A stretch of 64,000 nt of DNA from Umezawaea endophytica. GTDB lineage: Bacteria > Actinomycetota > Actinomycetes > Mycobacteriales > Pseudonocardiaceae. The translations under genes and the position numbers were made by a program. Under the pieces are notes generated by a model. It did not search any database. It saw only the letters and a list, made by a program, of their open reading frames with translations, and was not told the DNA's origin. Below are positions 28,134-42,824 of the stretch, one piece after another; the first letter of the stretch is position 1, and each line of letters starts with the position of its first letter. The DNA is taken from contig NZ_JANYMP010000001.1 of NCBI RefSeq assembly GCF_025061645.1, positions 1 to 64,000 on the forward strand. The letters run 5' to 3'.

Positions 28134-28176
28134 GAGCCCGACCTCCTGCGCTCGCTGATTTACACGAAGGTAGCTT

Positions 28177-28196
28177 TTGTAAAGTCGATTTGACAA
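28177..28196. promoter_or_regulatory. alkB operator, 20-bp palindrome
   Basis: TTGTAAAGTCGATTTGACAA, an imperfect palindrome centred on TCGA, 44 bp before the alkB ATG. The reverse strand contains GTCAAATCGACT, close to the operator core in front of the Baeyer-Villiger operon. Likely bound by the alkB-linked TetR. Confidence 0.65.
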
Positions 28197-28208
28197 GAGG
28201 GCACGATC

Positions 28209-28224
28209 TGTAAAGCCGATTGAC
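28209..28224. promoter_or_regulatory. second alkB operator-like element
   Basis: TGTAAAGCCGATTGAC, sharing TGTAAAG(T/C)CGATT with the palindrome 32 bp away. On the reverse strand it reads GTCAATCGGCT, one base different from the BVMO operator core GTCAATCGACT. Confidence 0.5.
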
Positions 28225-28271
28225 GGCTTGACGACACCCCCGCGAGTTGCCACGCTCGGTCCACCGGTTGT

Positions 28272-28285
28272 TGTTAGCGCTAACA
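28272..28285. promoter_or_regulatory. LacI-family operator before the GH30 gene
   Basis: Perfect 14-bp palindrome TGTTAGCGCTAACA, 40 bp before the GH30 ATG. It has the form typical of LacI-family repressors of glycoside hydrolase genes (central CG, TTAGCGCTAA). No LacI gene is present in the window, so the regulator is encoded elsewhere. Confidence 0.8.
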
Positions 28286-28324
28286 TCGCCCTGCTGATGG
28301 CGGCGCCCGTTCAACGGAGAACTG

Positions 28325-30334
28325 ATGACCGCTGCACGCACGCACTCCCGCGTCCTCCGCCTCGCGGTGGCCGCGTCCCTGCTACTGGCCACCTGCGCGG
28401 CGACGGCCGGAACGGCCTCCGCCGCGGCCGTCACCGTCCGACCCGACCCGAGCTACCAGCAGCAGCCCTTCCAGGGCTGGGGCACCAGCCTGGTGTGGTT
28501 CGCCAACGCCACCGGCGGCTACCCCGACGCCATCCGCACCCGCCTCGCGGACCTGCTGTTCGGCGCGGACGGCCTGAACCTGAACATCGCCCGGTACAAC
28601 ATCGGCGGCGGCAACGCGCCCGACGTGCCGCCGTACCTGCGGGCGGGCGGCGCGGTGCCCGGCTGGTGGAAGGCGCCCGCGGGCACCACCAGGACCGATA
28701 CCGACTGGTGGCGCCCCGGCGATCCCGCGCTGTTCGACCGGGCCGCCGATCCCCGCCAGCGCTGGTGGGTCGACCGGATCAAGTCGCGGGTCGACCGGTG
28801 GGAGGCGTTCAGCAACTCGCCGCCGTGGTTCCAGACCGTCAGCGGCTACGTCTCCGGCGGGTTCGACGCCAACGCCGACCAGCTCCGCCGGGACCGGATC
28901 GGCGACTTCGCCTCCTACCTGACGCAGGCGGTCGACGAGCTGGAACGGGCGCACGGCATCAGGTTCGGCACGCTGGACCCGTTCAACGAGCCCAACACCT
29001 CCTACTGGCGCACGACCCTGGGCGCCAACGGCAACCCGACCGGCGGCAGGCAGGAGGGCGCCCACCTGGGTCCGGCGTTGCAGGCGGAGGTCGTTCCGGC
29101 CGTCGCCGCCGCACTCGCGCGGGCGGCGACCGACGCGGTGGTGTCCGCCCCCGACGAGACCAACCCCGGCACGTTCGCCACCGACTGGAACGGCTACCCG
29201 CAGGCGGTGCGCGGCCAGGTCGGGCAGCTCAACGTGCACACCTACGGCACCGCCCGCCGCACGTCGGCGCGCGACATCGCCAAGGGCGCGGCGAAGCCGC
29301 TGTGGATGAGCGAGGTCGACGGGTCGTGGGGCGACGGCCAGAGCTTCACCAGCATGGACCCCGGCCTGGGGATCGCCGAGCGCGTCATCGACGACCTGCG
29401 CGAGTTGGAACCGGTGTCGTGGCTGCTCTGGCAGGCGATCGAGGACTACGACAACATGAAGCCCGGCGGTGAATCGCCGAACGGGATGAATTGGGGCGTC
29501 GTGCAGATCCCCTTCACCTGCGGCCCGAACGACACGCTCACGACCTGTCCGATCAGGACGAACACCAAGTTCCACACCCTGCGCAACTTCACCCATCACA
29601 TCCGGCCGGGCGACCGGCTGGTCAAGGTCGGGACGACGTCCGACGTGGCGGCCGTGCGCGGGACCTCCGACGCGCTGAAGTCGGTGGTGCACCTCAACAA
29701 GACCACCGAGGCGCAGCAGGTGACGCTCGACCTCTCGGCGTTCGCCACCGTCACCTCGGGCGCCACCGTCCGCCCGGTGACCACCGACGCGAACGGCGCC
29801 CTCGTCACCGGAACCGCCGTGCCCGTGCGCGACCGCGCCGCCACGCTCACCGTGCCCGCCCGGTCGGTCACCACGTTCGTCGTCGACGGCGTCTCCGGCG
29901 TCGCCCAGGGCACCGGGCTGCCGGGCAGGGACCACCGGCTCACCGGCGTGCAGAGCGGCAAGTCGTTGGCGCCGAACGGAACCGGCCTCGTGCAGCGCGA
30001 CACCAACACCGCGGCGGCCGATCAGCGCTGGCGCTTCGAGCGCCGCACCGACGGCTTCGGCAACCGGACCCAGTTCGCGATCACCAACGTCGGCACCGGC
30101 CAGCGCCTCGCGGCCACCGGGTCCGGCGTCGGGCTGACCACGCCGACCTCCGACGGACCGACCGCGCGGTGGGTGCTGTCCACCACCGGCGACGGCACGT
30201 GGACGGTGGTCAACGCCGGAACGGGGACGCTGCTGGACGTCACGGGCGAGTCGCGCGCGAACGGGGCGCCGATCGGGCTGTACCAGCCGACGTCCGGCGA
30301 CAACCAGCGGTGGACGGCGGTCGCCGTGAGCTGA
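28325..30334 (+). CDS. secreted GH30-type glycoside hydrolase with ricin-B-like (CBM13) domain
   Basis: 669 residues with a signal peptide (about 1-34, ending TASAAA). The catalytic barrel (about 36-510) begins QGWGTSLVWFANATGGYP. Acid/base Glu222 lies in DPFNEPNTSYW and nucleophile Glu330 in WMSEVDGSW, as in GH30. The family includes endo-beta-1,6-galactanases, which this most resembles; a glucosidase or xylan activity is possible. A C-terminal beta-trefoil (about 530-669) has two QRW-type repeats (ADQRWRFE, DNQRWTAV) for sugar binding. The promoter carries a LacI operator, so expression is probably sugar-induced. It is convergent with the CE15 gene across a strong terminator. Confidence 0.88.
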   Translation: MTAARTHSRVLRLAVAASLLLATCAATAGTASAAAVTVRPDPSYQQQPFQGWGTSLVWFANATGGYPDAIRTRLADLLFGADGLNLNIARYNIGGGNAPDVPPYLRAGGAVPGWWKAPAGTTRTDTDWWRPGDPALFDRAADPRQRWWVDRIKSRVDRWEAFSNSPPWFQTVSGYVSGGFDANADQLRRDRIGDFASYLTQAVDELERAHGIRFGTLDPFNEPNTSYWRTTLGANGNPTGGRQEGAHLGPALQAEVVPAVAAALARAATDAVVSAPDETNPGTFATDWNGYPQAVRGQVGQLNVHTYGTARRTSARDIAKGAAKPLWMSEVDGSWGDGQSFTSMDPGLGIAERVIDDLRELEPVSWLLWQAIEDYDNMKPGGESPNGMNWGVVQIPFTCGPNDTLTTCPIRTNTKFHTLRNFTHHIRPGDRLVKVGTTSDVAAVRGTSDALKSVVHLNKTTEAQQVTLDLSAFATVTSGATVRPVTTDANGALVTGTAVPVRDRAATLTVPARSVTTFVVDGVSGVAQGTGLPGRDHRLTGVQSGKSLAPNGTGLVQRDTNTAAADQRWRFERRTDGFGNRTQFAITNVGTGQRLAATGSGVGLTTPTSDGPTARWVLSTTGDGTWTVVNAGTGTLLDVTGESRANGAPIGLYQPTSGDNQRWTAVAVS

Positions 30335-30337
30335 GAA

Positions 30338-30380
30338 CCGGAGTCCGGTGTGGAGGGCGCGACTCCACACCGGACTCCGG
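30338..30380. terminator. bidirectional terminator between GH30 and CE15 genes
   Basis: 18-bp perfect stem beginning CCGGAGTCCGGTGTGGAG with a 7-base loop, filling the 50-bp gap between convergent genes. Confidence 0.88.
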
Positions 30381-30384
30381 AAAA

Positions 30385-32004
30385 CTACCCGGCGGAGCAG
30401 GTGGGCGTCGGCCCGCCTCCGGTGCCGGTGCCCTGGTAGCCGAACTCGGTCGACTGGCCCGCCGCGATGGTGCCGTTGAACGCGACGTTGGCGAACTGGA
30501 CCGCGCCGCTGTTCGCGCTCTTGGTGGCGTTCCAGATGCTCGTGATCGCCGCGCCGGACGGCAGGGTCGCGTCGACCTTCCACCCGTTGATCTGCGACGA
30601 GCCCGCGGTGACCTTCACGGTGGCGACGAAGCCGCCGTTCCACTGGTTGACCGACACCGACGCCGTGCACCCGCCACCGACCGACGGGGTGGTCGTCGTG
30701 GTCGTGGTGGTGGTCGTCGTGGTTGTCGTCGTCGTGGTCGGGCCGTCGGAGAGGGTCGGGGTCGTCCAGTCCCGCCACTGCGCGAGGTTCCCCGCCGCCT
30801 TGCCGGAGATCCGGATGACGCCGGGGGCGTTGCCGGTCTTCAGCAGGAACTTCTGGATGTTCTGCTGCAACGGCGTCCGCCACTCGGACCGGTTGGCGCA
30901 GTGGTTGCCGTCCTGGACGTCGGACCAGTAGGTGATGTTCTCGCCCGCGCCGAGCGCCTTGTACACCTCCGCGCCGCCGAGGGCCGCCACGCTCGCGGAC
31001 CTCGGGCCGAGGTTGGCGATGTGCGGGTTGTCCATGATGAACAGCCCTCGCGGCGCGACCATGGCCACCATCTCGTGCGTGTCCACCGGCAGGCCGTTCG
31101 GATTGCCGGTGAACGAGCCGAACGCGTCGCCGAACCAGGGCTGCTCGCCGTACGCGCTGCTCAGGCTCTGCGCGCCCTCGCCGGGGATCCCGCGGAAGAT
31201 CGGCACCCCCGCCGTGCCGGACTCGATCGGCATGGTCAGTGCGACGCGCTGGTCGAACACCCCGACCGTGAAGGCGCCCTTGCCGAAGCGGGAGCACCCC
31301 GTGACGCCGACCGCGTCCGCCTTGAGGACGCTGCCGCCGGACGACTCGATCACGTCGATCAGCCTGCTCACGCCCCAGGCCCAGGCGGCCAGCAGACCCG
31401 TGCCGCTCGACGAGCCGTAGACGCTGTAGAACGCGCCCTGCTTGTTGCTGCGGGGTGTGCCCTCCTTGCCGACGGCGTACGGGTCGTAGCTGATGACGGC
31501 CGCGCCCGCGGCCTTGATGGTGGCGGTGTCCGCGCCGAACCCGCCCAGCACGACGACGGCCGGGAACGGGCCGGTGCCGCTGGGCAGTTCGACCCGCGCC
31601 GAGAAGCTGGAGCTCTTGCCGTTGTGGGAGACGTTGACGGTGATGCCGGTGCTCGACACCGTTCCCGTGACGGTGGCGGGTTTCGGGGGCTTCTCGCCGT
31701 AGACGGACCTCTCCGCGAGCTTCTTGATCTCCGCGCGCCTGCACCGCCAGTCGGACCTGCTGCTGACGCGCGTGCCGTTCAGCCTGGTGAAGGGGTCGGG
31801 GAGCTTCGCGTTGGAGGGTGTCGAACCGGGGAGGGTCACCGGGCAGTCGGCGCCCTCGTCCTCGACGGCGGCGACGGCCGCCACGACGTCGGGGGCCGCC
31901 GCGGTCGTCGCGATCACCGTCGCCGAGCCGACGACCGTGAGCACCGCCGCCGCCAGCAGGACGACCGCCGAACGGATCCTGGATCGAGCCGAGCTGATGA
32001 TCAC
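30385..32004 (-). CDS. secreted glucuronoyl esterase (CE15) with Thr linker and CBM2
   Basis: 539 residues with a long signal peptide (about 1-37). The CE15 domain (about 55-405) has the nucleophile motif GVTGCSRFGKGA (Ser238), the acid region MPIESGTAG (Glu261) and His368 in DGNHCANRSEW. Such enzymes cut the ester bond between lignin alcohols and 4-O-methyl-glucuronate on xylan. A run of 17 Thr then leads to a CBM2 (about 440-539) with CTASVSVNQWNGGFVATVKV and FGYQGTGTGGGPTPTC, a cellulose/xylan binder. The promoter has GAAACTTT- and GTTAGCG-type elements; the first is shared with the GH10 gene 10 kb away. Confidence 0.93.
   Translation of the reverse strand: MIISSARSRIRSAVVLLAAAVLTVVGSATVIATTAAAPDVVAAVAAVEDEGADCPVTLPGSTPSNAKLPDPFTRLNGTRVSSRSDWRCRRAEIKKLAERSVYGEKPPKPATVTGTVSSTGITVNVSHNGKSSSFSARVELPSGTGPFPAVVVLGGFGADTATIKAAGAAVISYDPYAVGKEGTPRSNKQGAFYSVYGSSSGTGLLAAWAWGVSRLIDVIESSGGSVLKADAVGVTGCSRFGKGAFTVGVFDQRVALTMPIESGTAGVPIFRGIPGEGAQSLSSAYGEQPWFGDAFGSFTGNPNGLPVDTHEMVAMVAPRGLFIMDNPHIANLGPRSASVAALGGAEVYKALGAGENITYWSDVQDGNHCANRSEWRTPLQQNIQKFLLKTGNAPGVIRISGKAAGNLAQWRDWTTPTLSDGPTTTTTTTTTTTTTTTTTPSVGGGCTASVSVNQWNGGFVATVKVTAGSSQINGWKVDATLPSGAAITSIWNATKSANSGAVQFANVAFNGTIAAGQSTEFGYQGTGTGGGPTPTCSAG
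30688..30738. repeat. Thr-codon microsatellite (interdomain linker)
   Basis: 17 consecutive Thr codons (ACC, ACG and one ACA) linking the CE15 and CBM2 domains. The trinucleotide tract may vary in length between strains. Confidence 0.9.
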
Positions 32005-32074
32005 CTGGGCTCTCCTTCCGTGAGGGGTGGTGGAGGAGTCGGCAGGATCGACGCTCGCCGGTGTCGACGAGCTA

Positions 32075-32098
32075 AAGTTTCGGGGAAGTTAGCGAAAC
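32075..32098. promoter_or_regulatory. candidate operator of the CE15 gene
   Basis: AAAGTTTCGG at 32075-32084, GTTTCG/CGAAAC arms at 32077-32082 and 32093-32098, and a GTTAGCGAAAC element inside. On the gene strand it reads CCGAAACTTT, the core also found twice before the GH10 gene (42858-42888). Confidence 0.5.
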
Positions 32099-32198
32099 AT
32101 GTCAATGCGCCGATCCCGGCGCGCGGTCTCACATGGCGCTCACAGCGGGTAGCGAGCGGACGGCCGGTTGCCCGCTCGACCGACGCCGCCCTACAGTC

Positions 32199-32225
32199 AG
32201 GGCAGTCGTACAGGGCGACTGCCCT
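32199..32225. promoter_or_regulatory. TetR autoregulatory operator
   Basis: Perfect 10-bp arms AGGGCAGTCG / CGACTGCCCT with a 7-base spacer, 15 bases before the TetR GTG start. Likely bound by that TetR. Confidence 0.8.
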
Positions 32226-32240
32226 ACGTGGGAGGTGCGC

Positions 32241-32807
32241 GTGAGTTCTCCGGCGGCGCGACGGGGTCTGGAGGTCCGGCGGCGGCTGCTGGCCGCGGCG
32301 GTCGAACTCGTCCCGGAACGCGGCTGGGCGGGCGTGAGCACGAGGGTCCTGGCCGAGCGCGCCGGGGTGACGCCGAGCGTCGTGCACTACCACTACCCCA
32401 CGCTGCGGGCGCTGCTGACCGAGGCCGTGGTCGGGCACGTGCGGCAGGCGCTGGGCGAGGTGGAGGCGTTCCTCGCCACCGCGTCCACCCCAGAGGACGC
32501 CGTCGACGCGCTGATCGCGTCGGTGGAGCGGTACACCGGGTCCGACCCGACGTCCCTGCTGCTCACCGAGTCCTACCTCGCGGCGACGCGCGACGAGGAG
32601 CTGCGCGAACGGCTCGGCGGGGCGGTCGTGGAGTTCCGGCTGCGGTTCGGCGCCTGGCTGGGCGAGCGCGGCGTGCCGGACCCCGAGCGGACGGCCGCCG
32701 TGCTGATCGCCGCGGTCGACGGGCTGCTGCTGCACCGCGGCCTCGGGGCGGCGCCGGACTCGGCCGCCGTCCTGCGCAGGCTCGTCGACCGGGGTGGCCG
32801 CGCGTGA
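32241..32807 (+). CDS. TetR-family regulator, operon with FAD monooxygenase
   Basis: 188 residues from the GTG at 32241, chosen because GGAGG lies 5 bases upstream and the residues before it run through the operator. HTH (about 10-56): RRRLLAAAVELVPERGWAGV then TRVLAERAGVTPSVVHYHYP. The TGA overlaps the GTG of the FAD monooxygenase by 4 bases, so the two are translationally coupled. It probably represses its own operon through the palindrome at 32199-32225 and is released by the monooxygenase substrate. Confidence 0.92.
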   Translation: MSSPAARRGLEVRRRLLAAAVELVPERGWAGVSTRVLAERAGVTPSVVHYHYPTLRALLTEAVVGHVRQALGEVEAFLATASTPEDAVDALIASVERYTGSDPTSLLLTESYLAATRDEELRERLGGAVVEFRLRFGAWLGERGVPDPERTAAVLIAAVDGLLLHRGLGAAPDSAAVLRRLVDRGGRA

Positions 32808-33985
32808 GGGTCGTGGTCTGCGGAGCGGGGATCGCCGGGCTCACCTTCGCGAACCGGATGTCGTCCTCGGGCCATGAGGTCGTGCTGCTGGACCGCGCCC
32901 CCGGTCCCCGGCCGCAGGGGTACATGATCGATTTCTTCGGCCCCGGCCTGGACGCCCTCGACGCGATGGGGCTGCTGCCCGCGGTCGACGAGGTCCGCTA
33001 CCACGTCGACGAGGCGACCCTCGTGGACGGGCGCGGGCGGCGCACGGTCGGGGTCCGCACCCCCGGACTCGCGGGCGGCACGCTGGTCAACGTCCTGCGA
33101 CCGGACCTCGAAGGCGTGCTGCGCGCCCGCCTCCCGGCGGGCGTCGACGTGCGCTACGGCACCGGGCCGGTCGCCGTGACCGACCGCGGCGACCGGGTGG
33201 AGGTCGCGCTCACCGACGGGTCCACGCTCGGGGCGGACCTGCTCGTCGGCGCCGACGGCGTCCACTCGACGGTCCGCCGACTCGTCTTCGGCGACGAGCG
33301 GGAGTACCTGCGGTACCTGGGTTTCCACACCGCCGCGTTCCTCTTCGACGCGCCGCGGGTGCACGCCGCCACCCGCGGCCGCTTCACCCTCACCGACACC
33401 GTCGGCAGGCAGATGGGGTTCTACGGGCTGCGCGACGGCCGGGTCGCGACGTTCGCCGTGCACCGCACCCCGGACCCGACCACCCCCGCCGACGTCAGGG
33501 AGTCCGTCCGCGACACCTACCGCGGCCTCGGCTGGATCGTCCCCGAGGCGCTCGACCTGTGCCCGCCGTCGGAGGAGATCTACTACGACCAGGTCTCCCA
33601 GGTGCACGTCCCGGAGTGGAGCAGGGGCCGGGTCGTGCTCATCGGGGACGCGTGCCACGCCGTGTCCCTGCTCGCGGGCCAGGGGGCGTCGCTCGGCGTC
33701 GCGGGCGCCTACGTGCTCGCCGACCAGCTCACCCGCGCACCGGTCGACCGGGCGACGGCGGCGTACGAACGCCTGTGGCGCCCCGTCGTCGAGGAGAGGC
33801 AGCGGGTGGGCCGCGCGGGCGCCCGCTGGTTCCTGCCCGCTTCGGCGGTCGAACTCGTCGTCCGCCGCGCCGCGCTGCGCCTGACCCGCTTCCCGGCCGT
33901 CAGCCGCTGGGTCGCCGCCACGATCGTCGGCAAGTCGACCGACGTCGTCACCACCCCGCGCCGGGAACCGATCGATCCGGCATAG
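32804..33985 (+). CDS. FAD-dependent monooxygenase (PheA/TfdB type)
   Basis: 393 residues, GTG start overlapping the TetR stop. FAD motif VVVCGAGIAGLTFANRM at the N-terminus, LVGADGVHSTVRRLVFG (DG motif) and GRVVLIGDACHAVSLLAGQG (GD motif). Related to the enzyme at 22364-23473: both share YDQVSQ/FDSVSQ-(V/I)H-P-W-RGRVVLIGDA. The C-terminal tail (about 330-393) is longer and basic. A group A hydroxylase of an aromatic or polyketide-like compound, possibly a self-resistance or xenobiotic enzyme. Confidence 0.9.
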   Translation: MRVVVCGAGIAGLTFANRMSSSGHEVVLLDRAPGPRPQGYMIDFFGPGLDALDAMGLLPAVDEVRYHVDEATLVDGRGRRTVGVRTPGLAGGTLVNVLRPDLEGVLRARLPAGVDVRYGTGPVAVTDRGDRVEVALTDGSTLGADLLVGADGVHSTVRRLVFGDEREYLRYLGFHTAAFLFDAPRVHAATRGRFTLTDTVGRQMGFYGLRDGRVATFAVHRTPDPTTPADVRESVRDTYRGLGWIVPEALDLCPPSEEIYYDQVSQVHVPEWSRGRVVLIGDACHAVSLLAGQGASLGVAGAYVLADQLTRAPVDRATAAYERLWRPVVEERQRVGRAGARWFLPASAVELVVRRAALRLTRFPAVSRWVAATIVGKSTDVVTTPRREPIDPA

Positions 33986-34152
33986 CCACCGGTGGGCCGT
34001 TCGCCCGAACCCGCTGCCGCCGTATCCGTTTCGTGACCCTCGGATCTGAATCCAGCAGAGGGGTAGTCCTCTCTCGATCGTGTGTACGGACACACCGCGC
34101 TCGTGGACCACACCCGCGTCGGCCGCGTCCCGCGCGAGTGGTCACCCAAGAC

Positions 34153-34189
34153 CGAGTGGGTGGTCGTGACAGGACCGGTCACCCACTCG
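34153..34189. promoter_or_regulatory. inverted repeat upstream of the subtilase-sigma-CHAT operon
   Basis: 10-bp perfect arms CGAGTGGGTG / CACCCACTCG with a 17-base spacer, 77 bp before the operon start. A third related copy, CGAGTGGTCACCC, lies at about 34135. The 280-bp gap before the operon otherwise shows no gene. Likely a regulator site or a leader hairpin. Confidence 0.5.
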
Positions 34190-34265
34190 CACCCAGTTCA
34201 GCCGAGCACCGCACCACGCACCGTCGGAGCCGCCACGACGACGGCGGTCAGAAGGGACGCACACG

Positions 34266-35834
34266 ATGACGATCCGTTCGCCTCAGCGGCCTGCCACCAG
34301 GGCCGACCACCCCGACCTGCCCGTGTGGCCGCAGTGGTCGCTGGACAAGCACGGCGCTCGGATGCTGCACCCCGTGGGCGCGACGCGGAGGCCAGACGGC
34401 TCGGTCACGCGGTCGACCGTGTACCGCACGGCGGTCATGCTCATGCCGCACGGGGTGCTCGCCAACACCGAGTCGTGCGCCGAGGTCGACGCCGAGCTGA
34501 ACCTCGTCGGGCTGAGCATGAAGCGCTCCGCCGAGGAGGCCTGGCCCGTTCCGGAGCTGCCGGAGGAGCTGGACGTGCTGGACGGTCCGACCCGCGACCG
34601 CGTCCCCGTCCCCGTCGTCCTCTTCCCCCACGGCAGGACCACCGCGGAGGTGGACGCGTGGACCGGTGTGCGGCAGATCCGCCTGGGCCTGGACCAGGGG
34701 CGGATCGACCGGCTCCGGCCCGGCGTCGACGCGATCGCGCTGGAGCACCTGATGGTCGGGGCCTCCTTCGGCGGCGTGCCGACGTGGAGCCCGCACGACG
34801 TGCGCGGCGACACCGACGACGGCGGCGCGGGCGAGCCCTACCGGCTGCTGCCCGTGGCCTTCACGGGTGCGCGCCCACGGCGGCGGCGGGTGTGCGCGCA
34901 GGACGAGCGCCGGGTCGTCGTCGCCGTGCCGGACTCCGGTCTCAACACCCACCCCTGGTTCGGGGTCGAGGAGATCGGCGACCCGCTGCCCGCCGACGGG
35001 TTCGTGCAGGTCTTCGAGGCGGCCGAGGTCGCGCTGCGCGAGCAGGCGCGGCGGCTCGACGGCCTGACGCCGACGCAGGTACTGACCAGCGTGTGGGAGG
35101 ACCCGCCGTACACCGACGAGCTGTCGGAGCAGATCGGCAGGGCCACCGGGCACTTCACGTTCATCGCGGGCCGGATCCACCAGAACGCGCCGGACGCGGA
35201 CGTGCTCGCGCTGCGGGTCCTGCACCCCGACAACGTCTGCTACGAGGCGGACCTGCTGCTGGCGCTGTGGATGCTCGTCGGCCGGATCAAGCGGGGCGGG
35301 CACGTGGACGTCGTGTCGCTGTCGATCGGCGGGTACGTCGAGGACGACTCCGACGCCGCGCGGCACCTGCGCGAGGTCGTCACCGAGCTGACCGACCTCG
35401 GTGTGGTCGTCGTGGCGGCGGCGGGCAACGACGCCACCACCCGGCCCTTCTACCCGGCGGCGCTCTCGGAGGACGACCCTCTGGTGCTGGGCGTCGGCGC
35501 GCTCAACCCGGACGGCACCGAGGCGTGGTTCAGCAACGCCGGGGCGTACGTCACCGTCGAGGCCACCGGCGCGAACGTCCTGAGCACGTTCCCGACGAGC
35601 CTGCGCGGGGCGCGGGGCGCGCAGATGACGACCCTGTCCGGTGCCAGGCAGACCGCCGACCCGGACTGCTTCACCAGCGGGTTCGCCATCGGGTCCGGCA
35701 CGTCCTACGCCGCGCCCGAGGTCGCGGCCGAGGTGGCCGTGACGCTGGCGGGCGCCGCGGGCGGCATCGCGGTCCCGGAGACCGCGTCCAGGGCGGAGCG
35801 CGCGGCCGACGCGGTGAAACGGCTGCTGACGTGA
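34266..35834 (+). CDS. cytoplasmic subtilase-like S8 serine peptidase
   Basis: 522 residues starting MTIRSPQRPATRADHPDLPV, with no signal peptide, unlike most subtilases. An N-terminal region of about 215 residues has no recognised domain. The S8 domain keeps the catalytic set: Asp223 (VAVPDSGLNTHPWF), His296 (ATGHFTFIAG in place of the usual GHGTHVAG), oxyanion Asn388 (AAAGNDATTRP) and Ser480 (GSGTSYAAP). It is the first gene of a four-gene coupled operon with a sigma factor and a CHAT protease. The context points to intracellular regulated proteolysis, perhaps of the sigma factor's partner or of the CHAT protein. Substrate unknown. Confidence 0.88.
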   Translation: MTIRSPQRPATRADHPDLPVWPQWSLDKHGARMLHPVGATRRPDGSVTRSTVYRTAVMLMPHGVLANTESCAEVDAELNLVGLSMKRSAEEAWPVPELPEELDVLDGPTRDRVPVPVVLFPHGRTTAEVDAWTGVRQIRLGLDQGRIDRLRPGVDAIALEHLMVGASFGGVPTWSPHDVRGDTDDGGAGEPYRLLPVAFTGARPRRRRVCAQDERRVVVAVPDSGLNTHPWFGVEEIGDPLPADGFVQVFEAAEVALREQARRLDGLTPTQVLTSVWEDPPYTDELSEQIGRATGHFTFIAGRIHQNAPDADVLALRVLHPDNVCYEADLLLALWMLVGRIKRGGHVDVVSLSIGGYVEDDSDAARHLREVVTELTDLGVVVVAAAGNDATTRPFYPAALSEDDPLVLGVGALNPDGTEAWFSNAGAYVTVEATGANVLSTFPTSLRGARGAQMTTLSGARQTADPDCFTSGFAIGSGTSYAAPEVAAEVAVTLAGAAGGIAVPETASRAERAADAVKRLLT

Positions 35835-36403
35835 CGAACGGCCACCGGCGTCTGGACGACGAGCAGTTGGGCGCGCTGCTGGAGAAGACGCGGTCGGGTG
35901 ACCGGTCGAGCCTCGAAGCGGTGGTGCGCGACCTGACGCCGCTGCTGTGGCACGTCGCCAGGGCGCAGGGCCTCGACTCCGAGACGAGCGCGGACGTCGT
36001 GCAGACGACCTGGTTGAAGCTGCTGCGCGCCCTGGACGCCATCCGCGCCCCCGGCGCGCTGGTGAGCTGGCTGGTCACCACGACGAAGCGGGAGGCGTGG
36101 CGGGTCAGCCGAGCCCAGCGCACCGAACGGCCGGTGGGCGACGACGCGTTCTTCGACGAGCCCGACGAGGCTCCCGGTCCGGAGGACCACGTCGTCGTGT
36201 CGACGCGCAACAAGGAGCTGTGGGCGGCGGTGGAGCAGTTGCCGCAGCGGTGCAGGCAACTGCTGCGCATCGTCGCGTTCCTGCACCGACCGGACTACAG
36301 CGAGGTGTCCGCCGCGCTGGGCATGCCGCGCGGGTCGATCGGTCCGCAGCGCGGCCGGTGCCTCGGCAGGCTGCGCACCCTGCTGGCCCCGAAGGGAGAG
36401 TGA
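35831..36403 (+). CDS. ECF-like sigma-70 factor
   Basis: 190 residues, GTG start overlapping the subtilase TGA (GTGA). Region 2 (about 25-90): LEAVVRDLTPLLWHVARAQG, then SADVVQTTWLKLLRALDAIR and APGALVSWLVTTTKREAWRV. Region 4 (about 132-185): LPQRCRQLLRIVAFLHRPDY and SEVSAALGMPRGSIGPQRGR. It should direct RNA polymerase to a small regulon, possibly its own operon. No classical anti-sigma factor (zinc or membrane type) follows; the next product is a small beta-rich protein, so control may be unusual. Confidence 0.9.
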   Translation: MTNGHRRLDDEQLGALLEKTRSGDRSSLEAVVRDLTPLLWHVARAQGLDSETSADVVQTTWLKLLRALDAIRAPGALVSWLVTTTKREAWRVSRAQRTERPVGDDAFFDEPDEAPGPEDHVVVSTRNKELWAAVEQLPQRCRQLLRIVAFLHRPDYSEVSAALGMPRGSIGPQRGRCLGRLRTLLAPKGE

Positions 36404-36406
36404 CCG

Positions 36407-36844
36407 GTGAGCACCGACGACGAACTGCTGGGCAGGCTGAGGGACGTGTGGGACGAGGCGGACCCCGCGCCCGCGATCCTCGCCGACCTCGCGTGCTTCG
36501 CGCTCGACCACGCCACCGCCGACGACGAGGTGCTCGACGTCGTGCGGAAGCCCCGGCTCACGGCGTCCGCGCGCGGCGACGAGCGCTCGCAGCTCATCAC
36601 GTTCGACAGCGCCAGCCTGACCATCATGGTCAACGTGACGCCGCACGCCGACGGCTCGCTGAGGCTCGACGGGTGGATCACGCCGCCCGCCGCGTACCCG
36701 GTGGAGCTGCGCACGCCCACGAGCACGCGCTCCACGTCGTGCGACGGCAACGGCCGGTTCGCGTTCACCGGCGTGGTCCCGGCGCTGGCCCAGCTCTTCG
36801 TGCGGGCCAACGGGACGGTCACCACGCCGGCCATAGCGCTGTGA
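36407..36844 (+). CDS. small acidic/beta-rich protein of the subtilase-sigma-CHAT operon
   Basis: 145 residues, GTG start three bases after the sigma stop, with GGGAG upstream. The N-terminal helix (about 1-45) STDDELLGRLRDVWDEADPA resembles regulatory segments paired with sigma factors. The C-terminal ~85 residues look like a beta-sandwich (SLTIMVNVTPHADGSLRLDG, NGRFAFTGVVPALAQLFVRA) similar to carboxypeptidase-regulatory-like folds. It may be an anti-sigma or adaptor protein, or a substrate of the proteases beside it. No enzyme motif is visible. The stop overlaps the CHAT gene start. Confidence 0.75.
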   Translation: MSTDDELLGRLRDVWDEADPAPAILADLACFALDHATADDEVLDVVRKPRLTASARGDERSQLITFDSASLTIMVNVTPHADGSLRLDGWITPPAAYPVELRTPTSTRSTSCDGNGRFAFTGVVPALAQLFVRANGTVTTPAIAL

Positions 36845-39351
36845 CCGGTGCCTCAGCGCGGGCGCGGGCCCTGCACGACCGCGGCCGGGCGGCGCTGGGC
36901 GCGGGCCGGTCGGCGGAGAGCCTGCGGCTGTTCCGGACGGCGCTCGGGCTGCTGTCCTGGCCCGGTGCGACCGATCCGGACGACCGGACGGCCGCCGCGC
37001 GAGTGCTGATCAGCGCGGCGGCGGCCGAGGTCCACCTCGGCCGCTCCCCCGCGGGCTTCGCCCTGCTCGACGAGGCCGAGACCGCCGTCGCCCCCGAGGA
37101 CCGCGGCACGCTGCTGCTGCAACGGGGGCTGCTGTGCATCCTCACCGGCCGCATGGACGAGGCGTTGCGGCACCTCAACGAGGGCATCCCGCTGCACACC
37201 GACCCGGCGGACCGCTACGGCCTCGCGAGCGCCCTGCTCAACCGGGCCATGGTGCACAGCCTGGCGGGCAGGCCCCGGATCGCGGCGGCCGACCTGGAGC
37301 GGTGCGAGGAGATCGCCCACGCCGCGGACCTCCCGCTGATGGTCGCCAAGGCCAGGCTCAACCGCGGCTACTGCGAGATGCTGATGGGCGACATCCCGGC
37401 CGCGCTGCACTCGTTCGACCTGGCGAAGCCGGGGTTCGCCCGGCACGCCGAGGGTTTGCTGCCGGTGCTGGCGATCGACCGGGCGCGAGCGCTCATGCAG
37501 GCCGGGCTGGCCGACGAGGCCGCCGCGGAGCTGGACGAGGCGATCCGGCTGCTCGGGCGCGCCGGGCCGACCTACGAGCGCGCGGAGGCGGCGCTGACCC
37601 GTGCGAGCGCCGCCGTGTCCCAGGGGGACGCGCGGACGGCGCGACTGTGGGCGCGGCGGGCGGAGCGCCGCTTCCTGCGCCGGGGTGACCGGAGCTGGGC
37701 CGCCGTCGCCGTGCTCACCCGGCTGCGCGCCGACTTCCAGGCCGGGCGCAGGCTCGCCGCCATCGCCGCGGAGGCCGAGGACCTGGCGTCGACCCTGCAC
37801 GGCCTCGGGCTGCCGAACGACGGCGAGGCGGCCACGCTCCTGGCCGCCCGCGCGCTGGTGCGGCTCGGCAGGCACGGCGAGGCGGGACTCCTGCTGAGGC
37901 GCCGCCGCAGCCCGTCCCCGGTGCAGGAGACGGTGCTGCTGCGCAGGGTGGCGTGGGCCGAGTGGCACGCCGCGACCGGCGACACCGCGAAGGCGTTGCG
38001 CCAGGCCAGGTCCGGGCTGCGCGTGCTGCACGGCAGGCGCAGCCGGTTCGGCAGCATCGACCTGCGCACGGGCACGGCCGCGATGGGCGTCGACCTGGCC
38101 GCCGTCGGCCTCGCCACGGCACTGCGGCACGGCAGGCCCCCCGCGGTGTTCGCCTGGGCGGAACGCTCACGCGCGCAGGCGTTCCTGATGTCACCCGCGC
38201 ACCCGCCCGCCGACACCGAGACGTCCGACGCGGTGGCGGAGCTGCGCCAGTTGGCGACGGTCGTGCGCGCGGCGGAACTCGCGGGCCGTCGCGACGCGGA
38301 GGCGGCCCGGCGCTGCGCCGAGTTGGAGCACACCATCCGCGCCCGCGGCTGGCAGGCGCAGGGCGACGGCGAACAGACCGGACCGCACTCCCTGCACGAG
38401 GTCGCCGCCGAACTGGGCGACGCCGTCCTGGTCAGCTTCCTGCCGTCCGACGGGCGCCTGCTCGGGCTGGTGGTCGTGGACGGCACGAGCCGGATGGTGG
38501 CCTGCGGCGACCTGGCCGCCATCGCGGAGACGGTCGCCCGCCTGCGGTCCGACCTGGACGCCCTGTGCGGGCGCAGGCACCCGGCCGCGCTCGTCGAGGT
38601 GGTCAAGCTGTCCCTGCGGCACCAGCTCGACACCCTGCGGGACCAGGTCATCGCCCCGCTGGAGGCCCTGCTGGGCGACCGCGACCTGGTGATCGTGCCG
38701 ACCGGCCCGCTGTCCGGCGTGCCGTGGGGGCTGCTCGACGGGCTGCGCGGCCGTCCGGTGACCGTGGCGCCGTCGGCGTCCGTGTGGCTGCGCGGCCGAC
38801 GTCCGACGGGCAAGCCGACCACGCCGGAACCGCTGCTGGTGGCGGGCCCCGACCTGGACCACGCGCCGGGCGAGGTCGGCAAGATCGCCGAGGTCCTGCC
38901 GGACAGCACCGTCCTCACCGGCGCGTCGGCGTCCGTCGGCGGCACGCTGGCGGCCATGGCGGAACGCCGCATGGTGCACTTCGCCGCCCACGGCCACCAC
39001 GAGCCGGGCAACATCCTCTTCTCCCGCCTCGACCTGGCCGACGGCCCGCTCATGGCGTACGACATCGGCACCCTGCCCACCGCGCCGGAACACGTGGTGC
39101 TGTCCTCCTGCGACACGGGGCAGTCCGTGGTGCGCGCGGGCGACGAGATGCTCGGCTTCGCCGCCGCGTTCCTCTACGGCGGCACGAGAACGGTCGTCGC
39201 GGGCGTGGCCCGCGTCCCGGACGACGCGGTGGTCGACGTGATGACCACCTACCACCACCTCCTGCACCACGGCGCCCCACCGGCCAGGGCCCTCGCCGAA
39301 GCCTCGGAGACGACCCCGCTGATCCCGCTGGTGTGCTTCGGTTCCGGCTGA
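36841..39351 (+). CDS. TPR-CHAT caspase-like protease
   Basis: 836 residues, GTG start overlapping the previous stop (GTGA). The N-terminal half (about 1-480) is all-helical tetratricopeptide-like repeats, for example GTLLLQRGLLCILTGRMDEA and ALLNRAMVHSLAGRPRIAAA. The C-terminal CHAT domain (about 560-836) has the dyad His717 (MVHFAAHGHHEP) and Cys757 (HVVLSSCDTGQS), both intact, so it should be an active cysteine peptidase of the caspase/separase clan. CHAT proteins act in bacterial immunity and programmed death, usually after activation by a partner. It closes the operon and converges on a TIR gene 9 bases away. Confidence 0.92.
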   Translation: MTGASARARALHDRGRAALGAGRSAESLRLFRTALGLLSWPGATDPDDRTAAARVLISAAAAEVHLGRSPAGFALLDEAETAVAPEDRGTLLLQRGLLCILTGRMDEALRHLNEGIPLHTDPADRYGLASALLNRAMVHSLAGRPRIAAADLERCEEIAHAADLPLMVAKARLNRGYCEMLMGDIPAALHSFDLAKPGFARHAEGLLPVLAIDRARALMQAGLADEAAAELDEAIRLLGRAGPTYERAEAALTRASAAVSQGDARTARLWARRAERRFLRRGDRSWAAVAVLTRLRADFQAGRRLAAIAAEAEDLASTLHGLGLPNDGEAATLLAARALVRLGRHGEAGLLLRRRRSPSPVQETVLLRRVAWAEWHAATGDTAKALRQARSGLRVLHGRRSRFGSIDLRTGTAAMGVDLAAVGLATALRHGRPPAVFAWAERSRAQAFLMSPAHPPADTETSDAVAELRQLATVVRAAELAGRRDAEAARRCAELEHTIRARGWQAQGDGEQTGPHSLHEVAAELGDAVLVSFLPSDGRLLGLVVVDGTSRMVACGDLAAIAETVARLRSDLDALCGRRHPAALVEVVKLSLRHQLDTLRDQVIAPLEALLGDRDLVIVPTGPLSGVPWGLLDGLRGRPVTVAPSASVWLRGRRPTGKPTTPEPLLVAGPDLDHAPGEVGKIAEVLPDSTVLTGASASVGGTLAAMAERRMVHFAAHGHHEPGNILFSRLDLADGPLMAYDIGTLPTAPEHVVLSSCDTGQSVVRAGDEMLGFAAAFLYGGTRTVVAGVARVPDDAVVDVMTTYHHLLHHGAPPARALAEASETTPLIPLVCFGSG

Positions 39352-39360
39352 CCCGGCCGG

Positions 39361-40302
39361 TCACCTTGCCTGTTGCTCTGCGACAACCGCCAACTCAGCC
39401 AGTTCCTTCCGCGCGAAGTGCTGGTCGAAGAGTTTGCTCGCCTTCGCCATCGCCTTGAGCTTCCAGCCGGACCCGAACGCCCAACCCTTGCAGGTTATAT
39501 AGGTCGCTCCACCTTCGGCGGACGCGAGTACATATTCTAAACGAGTAGTCGGCGACCCGGAGATCAATTGTATTACGACCAGGGAGAACGGAGGATCGAA
39601 TACCACGACCACGGCATCCGAACTGATTCCGACGCCAATAACATTGATCGTCTGCCGATATCTGGTACCGATTCCAGCAGGCCCGTCCGATAAAAGCTCT
39701 AAAGACTGCGTCATCGAGTATATTTCAGGCGCCCTCTCAAAGTCGATGAGCAACGCCCAAACAACATCCAGAGGTGCCTCAATCCTGCGTCCCACGTCAA
39801 AAGCAAGAACTCTCGGTTCATCCAACTCGCTTCGAAGATCGACAGGAGCGGAGTCCACCACGCTCTCAACCGCGGAGACGACTCTACCCGCATCGTATTG
39901 GAAGCGGCTTGCACTCAGTTCGACCGCATTGCGCGAGGCCAACGCCCGAAGCTCGACAGGAAGGTCGCCCGCCGTCGGCATCACCGCGTTGTCCACCAGG
40001 ACCGGAATAACGCGGATACCGTGGTCGAAGGCCTTCTCGATCTCCATCCTCACCACGTCGTTGACGTCGCGAAGGCGGTCTGTGAGCCAGGAGGGGCCAA
40101 TCACCACGATGAGCGCACCGGCACGCGCGATGGTGCGGTCGATTGCCTCAATGAAGTCTTCGCCGGGTTCGATCGAGTCGACGTCCATGAAGACGTTGTC
40201 CTCGCCGAACCTGTCGACCAGCGCGTCGTACAGACGACCTGCGTGACCAGCGCTGTCGCTTCGGCGATAGGAGAGGAACACAGCTTTCCGCCTCGACCAC
40301 AT
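39361..40302 (-). CDS. TIR domain fused to a START/SRPBCC lipid-binding-type domain
   Basis: 313 residues starting MWSRRKAVFLSYRRSDSAGH. The TIR domain (about 5-135) has FLSYRRSD, VFMDVDSIEPGEDF, VVIGPSWL and VVRMEIEKAF, the Glu at about 87 matching the catalytic Glu of NAD-cleaving TIRs. The second domain (about 165-300) is SRPBCC/START-like: VGRRIEAPLDVVWALLIDFE, APEIYSMTQSLEL and ATYITCKGWAFGSGWKLK. The gene is visibly poorer in GC than its neighbours, uses rare codons (ATA) and contains three in-frame TTA Leu codons (residues 201, 204, 255). It was probably acquired by transfer and may depend on the bldA tRNA. A ligand-sensing TIR effector is the best guess. Confidence 0.88.
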   Translation of the reverse strand: MWSRRKAVFLSYRRSDSAGHAGRLYDALVDRFGEDNVFMDVDSIEPGEDFIEAIDRTIARAGALIVVIGPSWLTDRLRDVNDVVRMEIEKAFDHGIRVIPVLVDNAVMPTAGDLPVELRALASRNAVELSASRFQYDAGRVVSAVESVVDSAPVDLRSELDEPRVLAFDVGRRIEAPLDVVWALLIDFERAPEIYSMTQSLELLSDGPAGIGTRYRQTINVIGVGISSDAVVVVFDPPFSLVVIQLISGSPTTRLEYVLASAEGGATYITCKGWAFGSGWKLKAMAKASKLFDQHFARKELAELAVVAEQQAR

Positions 40303-40396: not shown

Positions 40397-41644
40397 TCAC
40401 CTGAACACCCGCAGCGGCACCGCCGCGGCCATCGCGGCCATGCCCGCGTCGTTCGGGTGCAGGTGGTCGCCGCTGTCGTACGCGGGTCGGAGGCGGGTGG
40501 GGTCGGTCGGGTCGCGGAGGGCGCGGTCGAAGTCGATCACGCTGTCGTGCTCGCCGCTGGTGCGGATCCAGTGGTTGACGGTTTGCCGCGCGGCCTCGTT
40601 CTCGGGGCTGTAGAAGCCGAAGGTGTCGTCCTTGAACGGGGTGATGGTGCCGCCGTGGATCCGCAGTCCGGCGGCGTGTGCGCGGGCGATGAGCTGGCGG
40701 TGGGCGGCGATGATGTCCTGCGCGGTGACCCGCTCCGATTCCGGGGCGCTGGTGCCGGGGTGGCCGAGGTCGTTGACGCCGAGCAGGACCACGACGTGGG
40801 CGGCTCCGGGCTGGGACAGGACGTCGCGGTCGAAGCGGCGGAGGGCGGCTTGGCCGAAGTAGTTCGCGTACGCCTCGGCCGGGTGGCCCGCGGGCGGGTT
40901 CGGGTCGTGCAGCAGGCGGTTGCCGCTGATGCCCGCGTTGACGACGCCGAGGTGGCGCGGGCCCGGCTCGGCCCGGAGGCGCCTGGCCAGCACGTCGGGC
41001 CAGCGGCGGTTCGCGCCGCGCGTCGTCTCGGCGCCGTCGGTGATCGAGTCGCCGAACGCCACGACGGTCGCGTCGCGCCCGCCCGTGACGCTGACGCCGG
41101 TGAGGAAGTGCCACTTGCCGAGCACGGCGGTCGGCGTGATGTCGACGCGGCCAGCGACGTTGCCCGCCGCCAGGTACCCGTCCTGGTACGGGAAGGCGTG
41201 CACGGTCGTCGCCGGGGTGCGGCGGGGCAGGTGGACGCTGACCACCAGGTCGGAGTCGGCCGCCACGGGCAGCGCGACGGGGTCGCTCAGCAGGGGCGCG
41301 CCGGGTGGCACGGTGGCCGACGCGCGGCCGCCGAACGTCAGCCGCCGGTCGGTGCGCGGGTCGATCGCCGAGGCCGCCCCGGCGCGGCGGGCGACGCGCG
41401 CCTCGCCGATGACCAGGGGCTGGGCACCGAACTCGTTGGACAGCCGCACGCGCACGGTGGACCCGCCCGCGCTCAGGTGCACGACCTGCCGCAGCGTCTG
41501 GTCCTCGAACGTCGTCGTGTCGGACGCGGGCACGGTCGTGGGCGAGGTCGCCCACGACCCGACCCACGCCGCGCGCGGTTCGGCGGCCACCGGTGACGCA
41601 GTCAGGAGCACCAGGGTGACCGCGGTGAGGAAGCGTTTCAGCAC
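40397..41644 (-). CDS. secreted SGNH/GDSL hydrolase (esterase)
   Basis: 415 residues from the GTG at 41644, with GGAGG 5 bases upstream and a signal peptide (LKRFLTAVTLVLLTASPVAA). A beta-rich N-terminal part (about 30-160) precedes the SGNH domain: VVAFGDSITDGAET (Ser block I), NAGISGN, VVLLGVNDLGHP (block III) and DHLHPNDAGMA (block V, Asp-His). Such proteins include carbohydrate acetyl esterases and other secreted esterases. Lying 64 bases downstream of the GH10 gene, it is probably co-transcribed and may remove acetyl groups from xylan. The substrate is inferred. Confidence 0.88.
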   Translation of the reverse strand: MLKRFLTAVTLVLLTASPVAAEPRAAWVGSWATSPTTVPASDTTTFEDQTLRQVVHLSAGGSTVRVRLSNEFGAQPLVIGEARVARRAGAASAIDPRTDRRLTFGGRASATVPPGAPLLSDPVALPVAADSDLVVSVHLPRRTPATTVHAFPYQDGYLAAGNVAGRVDITPTAVLGKWHFLTGVSVTGGRDATVVAFGDSITDGAETTRGANRRWPDVLARRLRAEPGPRHLGVVNAGISGNRLLHDPNPPAGHPAEAYANYFGQAALRRFDRDVLSQPGAAHVVVLLGVNDLGHPGTSAPESERVTAQDIIAAHRQLIARAHAAGLRIHGGTITPFKDDTFGFYSPENEAARQTVNHWIRTSGEHDSVIDFDRALRDPTDPTRLRPAYDSGDHLHPNDAGMAAMAAAVPLRVFR

Positions 41645-41658
41645 AGGGACCTCCGGGT

Positions 41659-41690
41659 CGGTCGTGGACGGCCGCGGAGGTCCACGACCG
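41659..41690. repeat. inverted repeat between GH10 and SGNH genes
   Basis: 11-bp arms CGGTCGTGGAC / GTCCACGACCG with a 10-base loop in the 64-bp gap. Could attenuate or terminate transcription between the two genes, or stabilise the upstream messenger. Confidence 0.5.
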
Positions 41691-41708
41691 TCCACGGAGG
41701 ACGGACGT

Positions 41709-42824
41709 TCAGCGGCGGGACGCCCCGGCGAGGGTGGAGCGCAGGGTGGAGTAGGCGGGTTTGCGGGAGAAGTCCTCCCACATCACGGTCGCCGCGCCCT
41801 GGCCCTGGAAGAACACCGGGACCCACGAGTACTTGTCGGTGAAGCCCCAGATCGTGAACGAGTCGCAGCCCTCGACGTTCAGGCACGCGGTGAGGGTGCG
41901 GTTGTAGTAGTCGGCCTGCTGGGCGAGCTGCGCCTCGGTCGGGACCCCGCCCTCCGGCAGGTCCATCCGGACGTCCAGCTCGGTGATGGCGGTGTCCAGG
42001 CCCAGCGCGGAGAACCGCCGCAGGTTGGTCTCCAGGTCACCGGGGAAGCCGTAGCGGATGCTCAGGTGCGCCTGCGCGGAGAAGCCGTGCACGGGGACGC
42101 GCTGGGCCCGCAGCCGCTTGATCAGCGCGAGGTAGGCGTCGCTCTTGGCGTTGACGCTCTCCACGCCGTAGTCGTTGAAGAAGAGCTTGGCACCGGGATC
42201 GGCCTCGTGCGCCCAGCGGAACGCGTCGGCGATGATGTCGGGACCGAGTTCGCGGAGCCAGATGTTGTCGGTGGTGCGCAGTTCGCCGGTGTCGGTGAAG
42301 ATCTCGTTGGCCACGTCCCACTGCTGGACGCTGCCCCGGTAGCGCCCGACGACCTTCTTGACGTGGTCGCGGAGGATCGAGCGCAGCTCGGCCTTGGAGA
42401 AGCCGCCCTGCTCCAGCCAGGCGGGGTTCTGGCTGTGCCACAGCAGCGTGTGCCCGCGCACGACCTGCCGGTTCTGCTTGGCGAACCGGACGATCTTGTC
42501 GGCCATGCCGAAGTTGTAGCGGTCGCGCTCCGGGTGGATGTACTCCCACTTCATCTGGTTCTCGGCCGACACGGAGCCGAACTCCGCCGCGAGCACCTTC
42601 CGGTACTCGCGGTCGGAGGTGAAGGGGTCGGGGTAGGGCTGGGACTCGTGGTGACCGCCACCCGCGACGGCGGTGCCGATGAAGAACCCCCTCGGCGCCG
42701 CTTGGCGCAGGGTGTCCTTGCGGGTGTGGCCGAGCGGTTGGACGTCGGCCGCGGCCACGGGGATCAGGGGGACCGACAGCGCCACGGCGGTGAACGCCGC
42801 GGCGGCCAGACGGGTCGGCTTCAT
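41709..42824 (-). CDS. secreted endo-1,4-beta-xylanase, GH10
   Basis: 371 residues with a signal peptide (about 1-26, ending VAAA). The GH10 barrel: acid/base Glu174 in QQWDVANEIF, nucleophile Glu282 in ITELDVRMDLP, plus GHTLLWHSQNPAW and NDYGVES. It cuts xylan backbones outside the cell. There is no attached binding domain. The promoter carries CGAAACTTTCG and GAAAGTTTC elements, motifs reported upstream of actinomycete xylanase genes. The SGNH esterase gene follows. Confidence 0.95.
   Translation of the reverse strand: MKPTRLAAAAFTAVALSVPLIPVAAADVQPLGHTRKDTLRQAAPRGFFIGTAVAGGGHHESQPYPDPFTSDREYRKVLAAEFGSVSAENQMKWEYIHPERDRYNFGMADKIVRFAKQNRQVVRGHTLLWHSQNPAWLEQGGFSKAELRSILRDHVKKVVGRYRGSVQQWDVANEIFTDTGELRTTDNIWLRELGPDIIADAFRWAHEADPGAKLFFNDYGVESVNAKSDAYLALIKRLRAQRVPVHGFSAQAHLSIRYGFPGDLETNLRRFSALGLDTAITELDVRMDLPEGGVPTEAQLAQQADYYNRTLTACLNVEGCDSFTIWGFTDKYSWVPVFFQGQGAATVMWEDFSRKPAYSTLRSTLAGASRR

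Follow-up and report, generated by a model that had tools for sequence, protein, structure and literature searches.

A conserved subtilase, sigma factor, small-protein and TPR-CHAT protease module in Umezawaea endophytica: a possible ECF54-like proteolytic switch

Introduction

Why should two different proteases be encoded side by side with a sigma factor? The question is raised by a stretch of 64,000 nucleotides from the actinomycete Umezawaea endophytica (contig NZ_JANYMP010000001.1, positions 1 to 64,000; hereafter the window), in which four genes encode, in this order, a subtilase of family S8, a sigma factor of the extracytoplasmic function (ECF) type, a small protein, and a TPR-CHAT caspase-like protease. 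The compact layout described in an earlier, sequence-only reading of the locus can be read directly in the DNA: the open reading frames lie where they had been placed, stop and start codons overlap in GTGA at 35831 and 36841, and a gap of 3 bases (36404-36406) separates the second and third genes. The arrangement is not one of chance, as relatives hold these genes together in several orders and with conserved catalytic residues, and the four genes form a real, widely conserved, co-directional module. There is about an even chance that this module is an autoregulated proteolytic sigma-factor switch resembling the sigma factors of group ECF54 and their surroundings. The elements that are new here are the fold of the small protein and its fusion to sigma, the predicted zymogen nature of the subtilase, the peptide arrays at its junction, and a promoter motif. 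The sequence-only reading had overlooked the propeptide-like N-terminal third of the subtilase, the junction repeats of its relatives, and a convergent gene for a TIR-SRPBCC protein.

The four-gene module

Pfam models assign the window proteins to Peptidase_S8 (2.6e-19), Sigma70_r2 (7e-10), CHAT (1.5e-32) and TPR_12 (3e-9). The subtilase displays the S8 fold together with the D/H/N/S catalytic residues of that family; the CHAT domain scores 113.7 bits against a cut-off of 24 and holds the caspase-like His/Cys dyad; and the sigma factor lies above the NCBIfam sigma70-ECF cut-off (69.6 versus 42.9 bits), its sigma4 region being just weakly recognized by Pfam. Both proteases had been described as intact, and their catalytic residues (Table 1) confirm it, the S8 residues being retained in 127/127 relatives and the CHAT dyad in 139/141. 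A strongly hydrophobic N-terminal segment is found in none of the four proteins, which is consistent with a cytoplasmic location and agrees with the earlier view that export signals are absent.

Relatives were gathered from three sources, namely 100 relatives searched with each of the S8, sigma and small proteins, 296 genomes sampled evenly from the phylum and searched with a small-protein alignment (positive in 32), and 80 named loci retrieved with an S8 alignment. A simple codon-usage script served for gene calling, and labels were assigned with profiles built from the loci themselves, so that a label recorded as absent may correspond to a missed gene. As the samples are in part selected and contain closely related members, the counts should be taken as a description of the loci seen and not as rates. 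The sigma gene lies immediately upstream of, or is fused to, 145 of the 154 distinct small-protein genes, with a median overlap of 4 nucleotides, and the full set of sigma, small protein, CHAT and S8 occurs within five genes at 107 of these 154 loci. Partial sets also exist: 23 loci combine sigma, small protein and CHAT without S8, 17 hold sigma and the small protein only, and 6 hold S8 and CHAT with neither sigma nor the small protein, a pattern that is as expected of one sigma pair and one protease pair. Among the loci selected through S8, all four genes are present in 65/77, the two main orders being sigma-small-S8-CHAT (39) and S8-sigma-small-CHAT (23). The genes are thus kept together in most of the loci seen, and both the small open reading frame and the N-terminal domain of the subtilase are conserved, so that neither of the two findings which the sequence-only reading had named as refuting it was obtained.

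Some genomes possess more than one copy. That of the window (G000) includes, at L072, L049 and L070, at least two more complete sets, on contigs 20 and 28, as well as a CHAT-less pair beside groEL, and five loci (L091, L178, L200, L038 and L039) hold two S8 and two CHAT genes each.

The sigma factor and its probable partner

The small protein was modeled with AlphaFold2 on 45 relatives, giving a predicted local distance difference test (pLDDT) score of 90 and a structure in which helices 4-18 and 24-35 are followed by a linker and then by a beta sandwich. Comparison of the model with the PDB returned only generic Ig/FN3-like sandwiches among the matches listed (best Z 7.4), NCBIfam models gave no match, and the Pfam CarboxypepD_reg model gave a weak, sub-threshold score (18.6 versus 32.3 bits) with which the predicted Ig-like sandwich is compatible. 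A sequence search for solved relatives of the TPR-CHAT protease or of the small protein yielded none that was significant. The association with sigma is more telling, as one relative carries a natural sigma-small-protein fusion (L046:6599-7528); this fusion and the constant pairing of the two genes suggest that the small protein contacts sigma directly. It is probably the partner or inhibitor of sigma and, judging from other sigma-partner pairs, inhibition appears to be its likeliest role.

The subtilase and its junction arrays

In the AlphaFold2 model of the window S8 protein (predicted template modeling score, pTM, 0.88), a propeptide fold is packed ahead of the catalytic domain. Its best structural matches include pro-enzymes that hold the propeptide in the same chain: unprocessed pro-subtilisin E (3whi) at Z 26.4 over residues 55-522, PCSK9 at Z 27.0, and pro-Tk-subtilisin. 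The matches to unprocessed forms cover residues 49 or 55 to 522. The Pfam Inhibitor_I9 model does not match the window protein up to E = 1, so that propeptide homology rests on structure. On the strength of the model, the subtilase is predicted to be a pro-subtilisin-like zymogen whose N-terminal third is propeptide-like. Residues 170-191, which come after the last propeptide strand, have low pLDDT and are predicted to be disordered.

This junction is the site of the most interesting part of the finding. At the propeptide/protease boundary, 78/116 module S8 proteins carry perfect tandem peptides, with units of 5-9 residues (mostly 6) in 2 to about 12 copies, such as NPFTRT x3 in Microbacterium, PFTSGG x7, NPAYQG x8, and PFWGGH x4. 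The units vary from species to species, the 78 arrays comprising 64 distinct ones, and share a core: in 78% of the distinct units that contain proline, this residue is followed by F, Y, W, L or M, versus 15% elsewhere in the same proteins. Such a Pro-aromatic core equals the P2-P1 positions of AAPF, the classic subtilisin substrate, and the units can accordingly be read as self-cleavage sites. A literature search for junction repeats retrieved no report, and as far as the searches show the arrays are an unreported feature. In three of the loci with duplicated protease genes (L091, L178 and L200), the units differ between one S8 protein and the other (PFTSGG versus HPMYDG or HPLYDG), which suggests that each S8 forms a pair with its own CHAT protein. 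Two further roles for the unit were considered and rejected: that of a cleavage sequence common to the small protein, sigma and CHAT, as cognate scores were no better than non-cognate ones, and that of a sequence read by CHAT, for which Mantel tests were weak and confounded.

A tentative proposal, and one that we regard as rather doubtful, is that these arrays of identical short peptides are maintained by selection as repeated self-cleavage sites, which would either impose a delay or liberate numerous copies of a private peptide controlling the partner TPR-CHAT protease and sigma. The module would in that case be an intracellular, peptide-counting protease switch for which there is no known precedent.

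Upstream motif and possible regulon

A two-box motif, TGTATCA-N16-CTCCT, recurs upstream of the first gene of the modules, where 97/181 regions score above 8 versus 19 on the opposite strand. Its strict form yields 62 matches in 40 genomes, many of them at modules, versus 12 for a reversed-pattern control. The motif would fit an autoregulated ECF promoter. Genes directly downstream of copies distant from modules (L205:1618-2406, L217:1573-2406, L208, L213 and L225) are possible regulon members, and encode two PG_binding_1 proteins (in two genomes), an M66-like peptidase, a protein with no Pfam match, and a DUF3892-PASTA protein. In the window, an inverted repeat at 34140-34196, upstream of the S8 start codon (CGAGTGGGTG...CACCCACTCG), could be an operator or form a hairpin.

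Modules of Microbacterium have a second TGTATCA-N-CTCCT site, about 5-75 bp past the CHAT stop codon. It precedes some 150-180 nucleotides of conserved and apparently non-coding sequence, in which there are hairpins with GGGG loops and one that resembles a terminator; this stretch is a candidate for a small RNA under sigma control (L166:10678-10878, L168:10679-10862, L171, L173, L175, L179, L184 and L186, with L160, L162, L164, L170, L172 and L180 more distant). It displays some compensatory pairs and has no match in Rfam. A model of it found nothing convincing beyond this group or at the window module, and its match at position 19644 of the window (E 0.004), far from the module, was treated as chance.

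Table 1. Module features located in the window
Feature	Position	Strand	Basis
Weak, diverged promoter candidate, TGAATCC-N-CTCTCT (score 7.3, below the level separating real upstream regions from controls)	34045..34075	+	Motif scoring
S8 subtilase, 522 residues, predicted cytoplasmic pro-subtilisin-like zymogen	34266..35834	+	D223/H296/N388/S480
Propeptide-like N-domain of the subtilase (predicted), residues about 49-164	34410..34757	+	AlphaFold2 model and best PDB matches
Single junction unit GGVPTWSPHD, residues 169-178, at the site of the tandem arrays of relatives	34770..34799	+	Alignment and survey; low pLDDT at 170-191
ECF-type sigma factor, 190 residues	35831..36403	+	Pfam and NCBIfam
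Small protein, 145 residues, predicted two N-terminal helices and Ig/FN3-like beta sandwich; probable sigma partner/anti-sigma	36407..36844	+	AlphaFold2 model, sigma adjacency, natural fusion
TPR-CHAT caspase-like protease, 836 residues	36841..39351	+	H717/C757
CHAT domain of the TPR-CHAT protease, residues 596-822	38626..39306	+	Pfam

Genomic setting

At 16 loci the module is found at a ribosomal protein cluster, as a rule with rplK-rplA on one side and rplJ-rplL on the other, and insertions at this site occur in several actinobacterial families (L036, L037, L040, L138, L152, L156, L157, L159, L169, L176, L188, L189, L191, L193 and L194). In the family of the window, 11 loci with sigma and small-protein genes, with or without CHAT, stand beside groEL. 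Plasmid and phage collections held no convincing copy, the sole near-full-length "plasmid" match being an 11.85 Mb Nonomuraea record of chromosomal size. Fixed chromosomal sites and the lack of copies in these collections give the module the look of vertical, core inheritance. The window proteins match no PADLOC model of known anti-phage systems, and no Cas genes were seen among the neighbors scanned. The surroundings in the window (26736-33985 and 40397-42824), which encode glycoside hydrolases, a glucuronoyl esterase with CBM2, a GDSL lipase, a desaturase-rubredoxin, a TetR regulator and an FAD-binding protein, are a polysaccharide-degradation region and not a defence island. Convergent to the CHAT gene, a gene at 39361-40302 on the reverse strand encodes a protein that combines TIR_2 and SRPBCC/Polyketide_cyc2 domains.

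A proposed mechanism and its alternatives

In the switch considered here, sigma would be paired at the core with the small Ig-fold protein, which most likely holds it inactive. The subtilase would be made as a zymogen, whose disordered junction behind the propeptide offers one or more Pro-hydrophobic sites and is probably cut by the enzyme itself, while the TPR-CHAT protease would be the probable sensor or trigger. A cytoplasmic signal would activate both proteases, which would remove the small protein, either directly or one by way of the other, and the freed sigma could then transcribe the operon that encodes it, along with a small number of other genes in some hosts. This scheme draws on the pairing and fusion of sigma and the small protein, the sub-sets found among relatives, the retained catalytic residues, the pro-subtilisin match, the junction units, and the upstream motif. 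It has precedents in the proteolytic control proposed for ECF54, as given in a review of non-canonical ECF factors (PMC8999054), and in the Csx29/Csx30/CASP-sigma system (PMC10028731).

Several observations weigh against it. No known anti-sigma fold appears among the PDB matches listed for the small protein, and no relation of this protein to known anti-sigma domains was detected; the junction unit was not found by sequence in the partner small protein, sigma factor or CHAT protein; and the correlations between unit similarity and module proteins, given below, are confounded by shared ancestry. The window copy has a single unit and no array, one or two units being present in the relatives nearest to it, and a weak promoter candidate at most, and its genome holds no exact match to the strict motif. 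The literature searched contains no experimental study of such a module.

One alternative makes the CHAT protease a hub comparable to that of Craspase: it would cleave both the small protein, freeing sigma, and the S8 junction, activating a subtilase that acts as downstream destructive effector. CHAT does occur with sigma and the small protein in the absence of S8 (23 loci), and with S8 in the absence of both (6 loci), which designates it as the shared element, and Csx29 cuts the sigma inhibitor Csx30 (PMC10028731). However, the units vary freely past their Pro-hydrophobic core, the small protein does not share them, and their similarity is least correlated with the CHAT domain, which makes such a hub unlikely. 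A module for phage defence or programmed death, with the junction as bait for foreign proteases, is a different proposition. CHAT proteins act in immunity elsewhere, a TIR-SRPBCC gene adjoins the window module, and the units differ between species; against this stand the missing PADLOC match, the lack of convincing plasmid or phage copies, the fixed sites between ribosomal protein genes or beside groEL, and the lack of a constant toxic partner. Between close relatives, moreover, divergence of the units does not outpace that of the other module sequences, so that there is no arms-race signature. The role in immunity or death suggested by the sequence-only reading finds little support in this setting; the filing under phage defence was rejected for want of a PADLOC match, mobile copies and a constant toxic partner, and we give such a role very little chance.

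The arrays allow explanations of their own. They could be neutral by-products of replication slippage in a disordered linker, as the predicted disorder of the junction and the range of copy numbers would permit. The copies of an array, which are identical as peptides by definition, are nonetheless identical as DNA in 0/78 cases (mean DNA identity between copies 0.89), and the ratio of nonsynonymous to synonymous substitution rates (dN/dS) among copies of near-perfect arrays is about 0.11, a value biased downward by the choice of perfect and near-perfect arrays. Comparable tandem peptides occur in 1-2% of the other genes of the loci and in 0/22 other S8 proteins of three genomes, against 60% of the module S8 proteins in this comparison; with the strong Pro-aromatic bias added, slippage becomes highly improbable. 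Alternatively, the arrays could encode ligands, self-cleavage of S8 freeing hexapeptide copies that bind the TPR part of the partner CHAT protease, in a private intracellular signal with RRNPP-like logic. Such a role is favored by the fact that several copies are kept identical as peptides, by the co-duplication of S8-CHAT pairs with different units in L091, L178 and L200, and by the TPR part tracking the unit better than the CHAT domain. The Mantel correlation with unit similarity is 0.38 for the TPR part and 0.31 for the CHAT domain, and partial correlations given sigma are 0.16 (p 0.014) and 0.06 (not significant). Nevertheless, the effect is small, confounded by phylogeny and common to other module proteins (0.42 for both the S8 propeptide and the S8 catalytic domain, 0.40 for the small protein), and about a third of module S8 proteins, including that of the window, are without an array; the ligand role is improbable. 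That unit similarity tracks S8 more than the CHAT domain is compatible with self-recognition by the subtilase, although confounded by shared ancestry.

For the ECF54 idea that a sigma factor is controlled by proteases encoded next to it, these results supply definite elements open to experiment: the small protein as candidate inhibitor, its fold predicted; a predicted zymogen whose junction has been mapped; a putative promoter usable as a reporter; and hosts with simple sub-sets. The tandem arrays could, in turn, reveal a new way of timing or multiplexing a proteolytic signal.

Relation to known systems

The sequence-only reading knew of no experimentally described system with this set of genes. 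As regards experiment the statement stands within the literature searched, but the gene set is not unknown, since the review PMC8999054 describes carboxypeptidase, subtilase and CHAT proteins around the genes of ECF54 members, a group traced there to Casas-Pastor 2021 and Huang 2015. The window module fits that description, with its ECF-type sigma factor and conserved subtilase and CHAT neighbors, the likeness being one of gene context and not of ECF54 sequence profile; for the carboxypeptidase neighbor, the window offers the weak CarboxypepD_reg score of the small protein. In neither is a classical anti-sigma factor recognized, and both have conserved protease neighbors and invite a proposal of proteolytic control; the small-protein fold, zymogen domain, junction repeats and promoter motif are not described in the available part of that source. 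The EACC2-caspase systems similarly bring together a caspase-like peptidase, an ECF sigma factor and a TPR protein in one neighborhood, but with other domains (EACC2, DUF1822, TRADD-N) and, in the available part of PMC8195603, no subtilase described with them.

For the subtilase, the closest structural counterparts are the pro-subtilisins (subtilisin E, Tk-subtilisin) and PCSK9, in which a propeptide domain likewise comes before the S8 catalytic domain. The module enzyme differs from these in having no export signal, no Pfam I9 match, and a junction that in many relatives is expanded to tandem peptides. The mechanistic precedent for joining a TPR-CHAT protease to a sigma factor is Craspase/CASP (Cas7-11, Csx29, Csx30 and CASP-sigma), in which the TPR-CHAT protease Csx29 cleaves Csx30 and Csx30 inhibits CASP-sigma (PMC10028731). 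The window CHAT protein reaches 23 of the 300 bits required by the Csx29 model, which places it outside type III-E Craspase, and the present module, in contrast to that system, has no CRISPR effector, includes a small protein that matches no NCBIfam model, and carries an additional protease, the subtilase.

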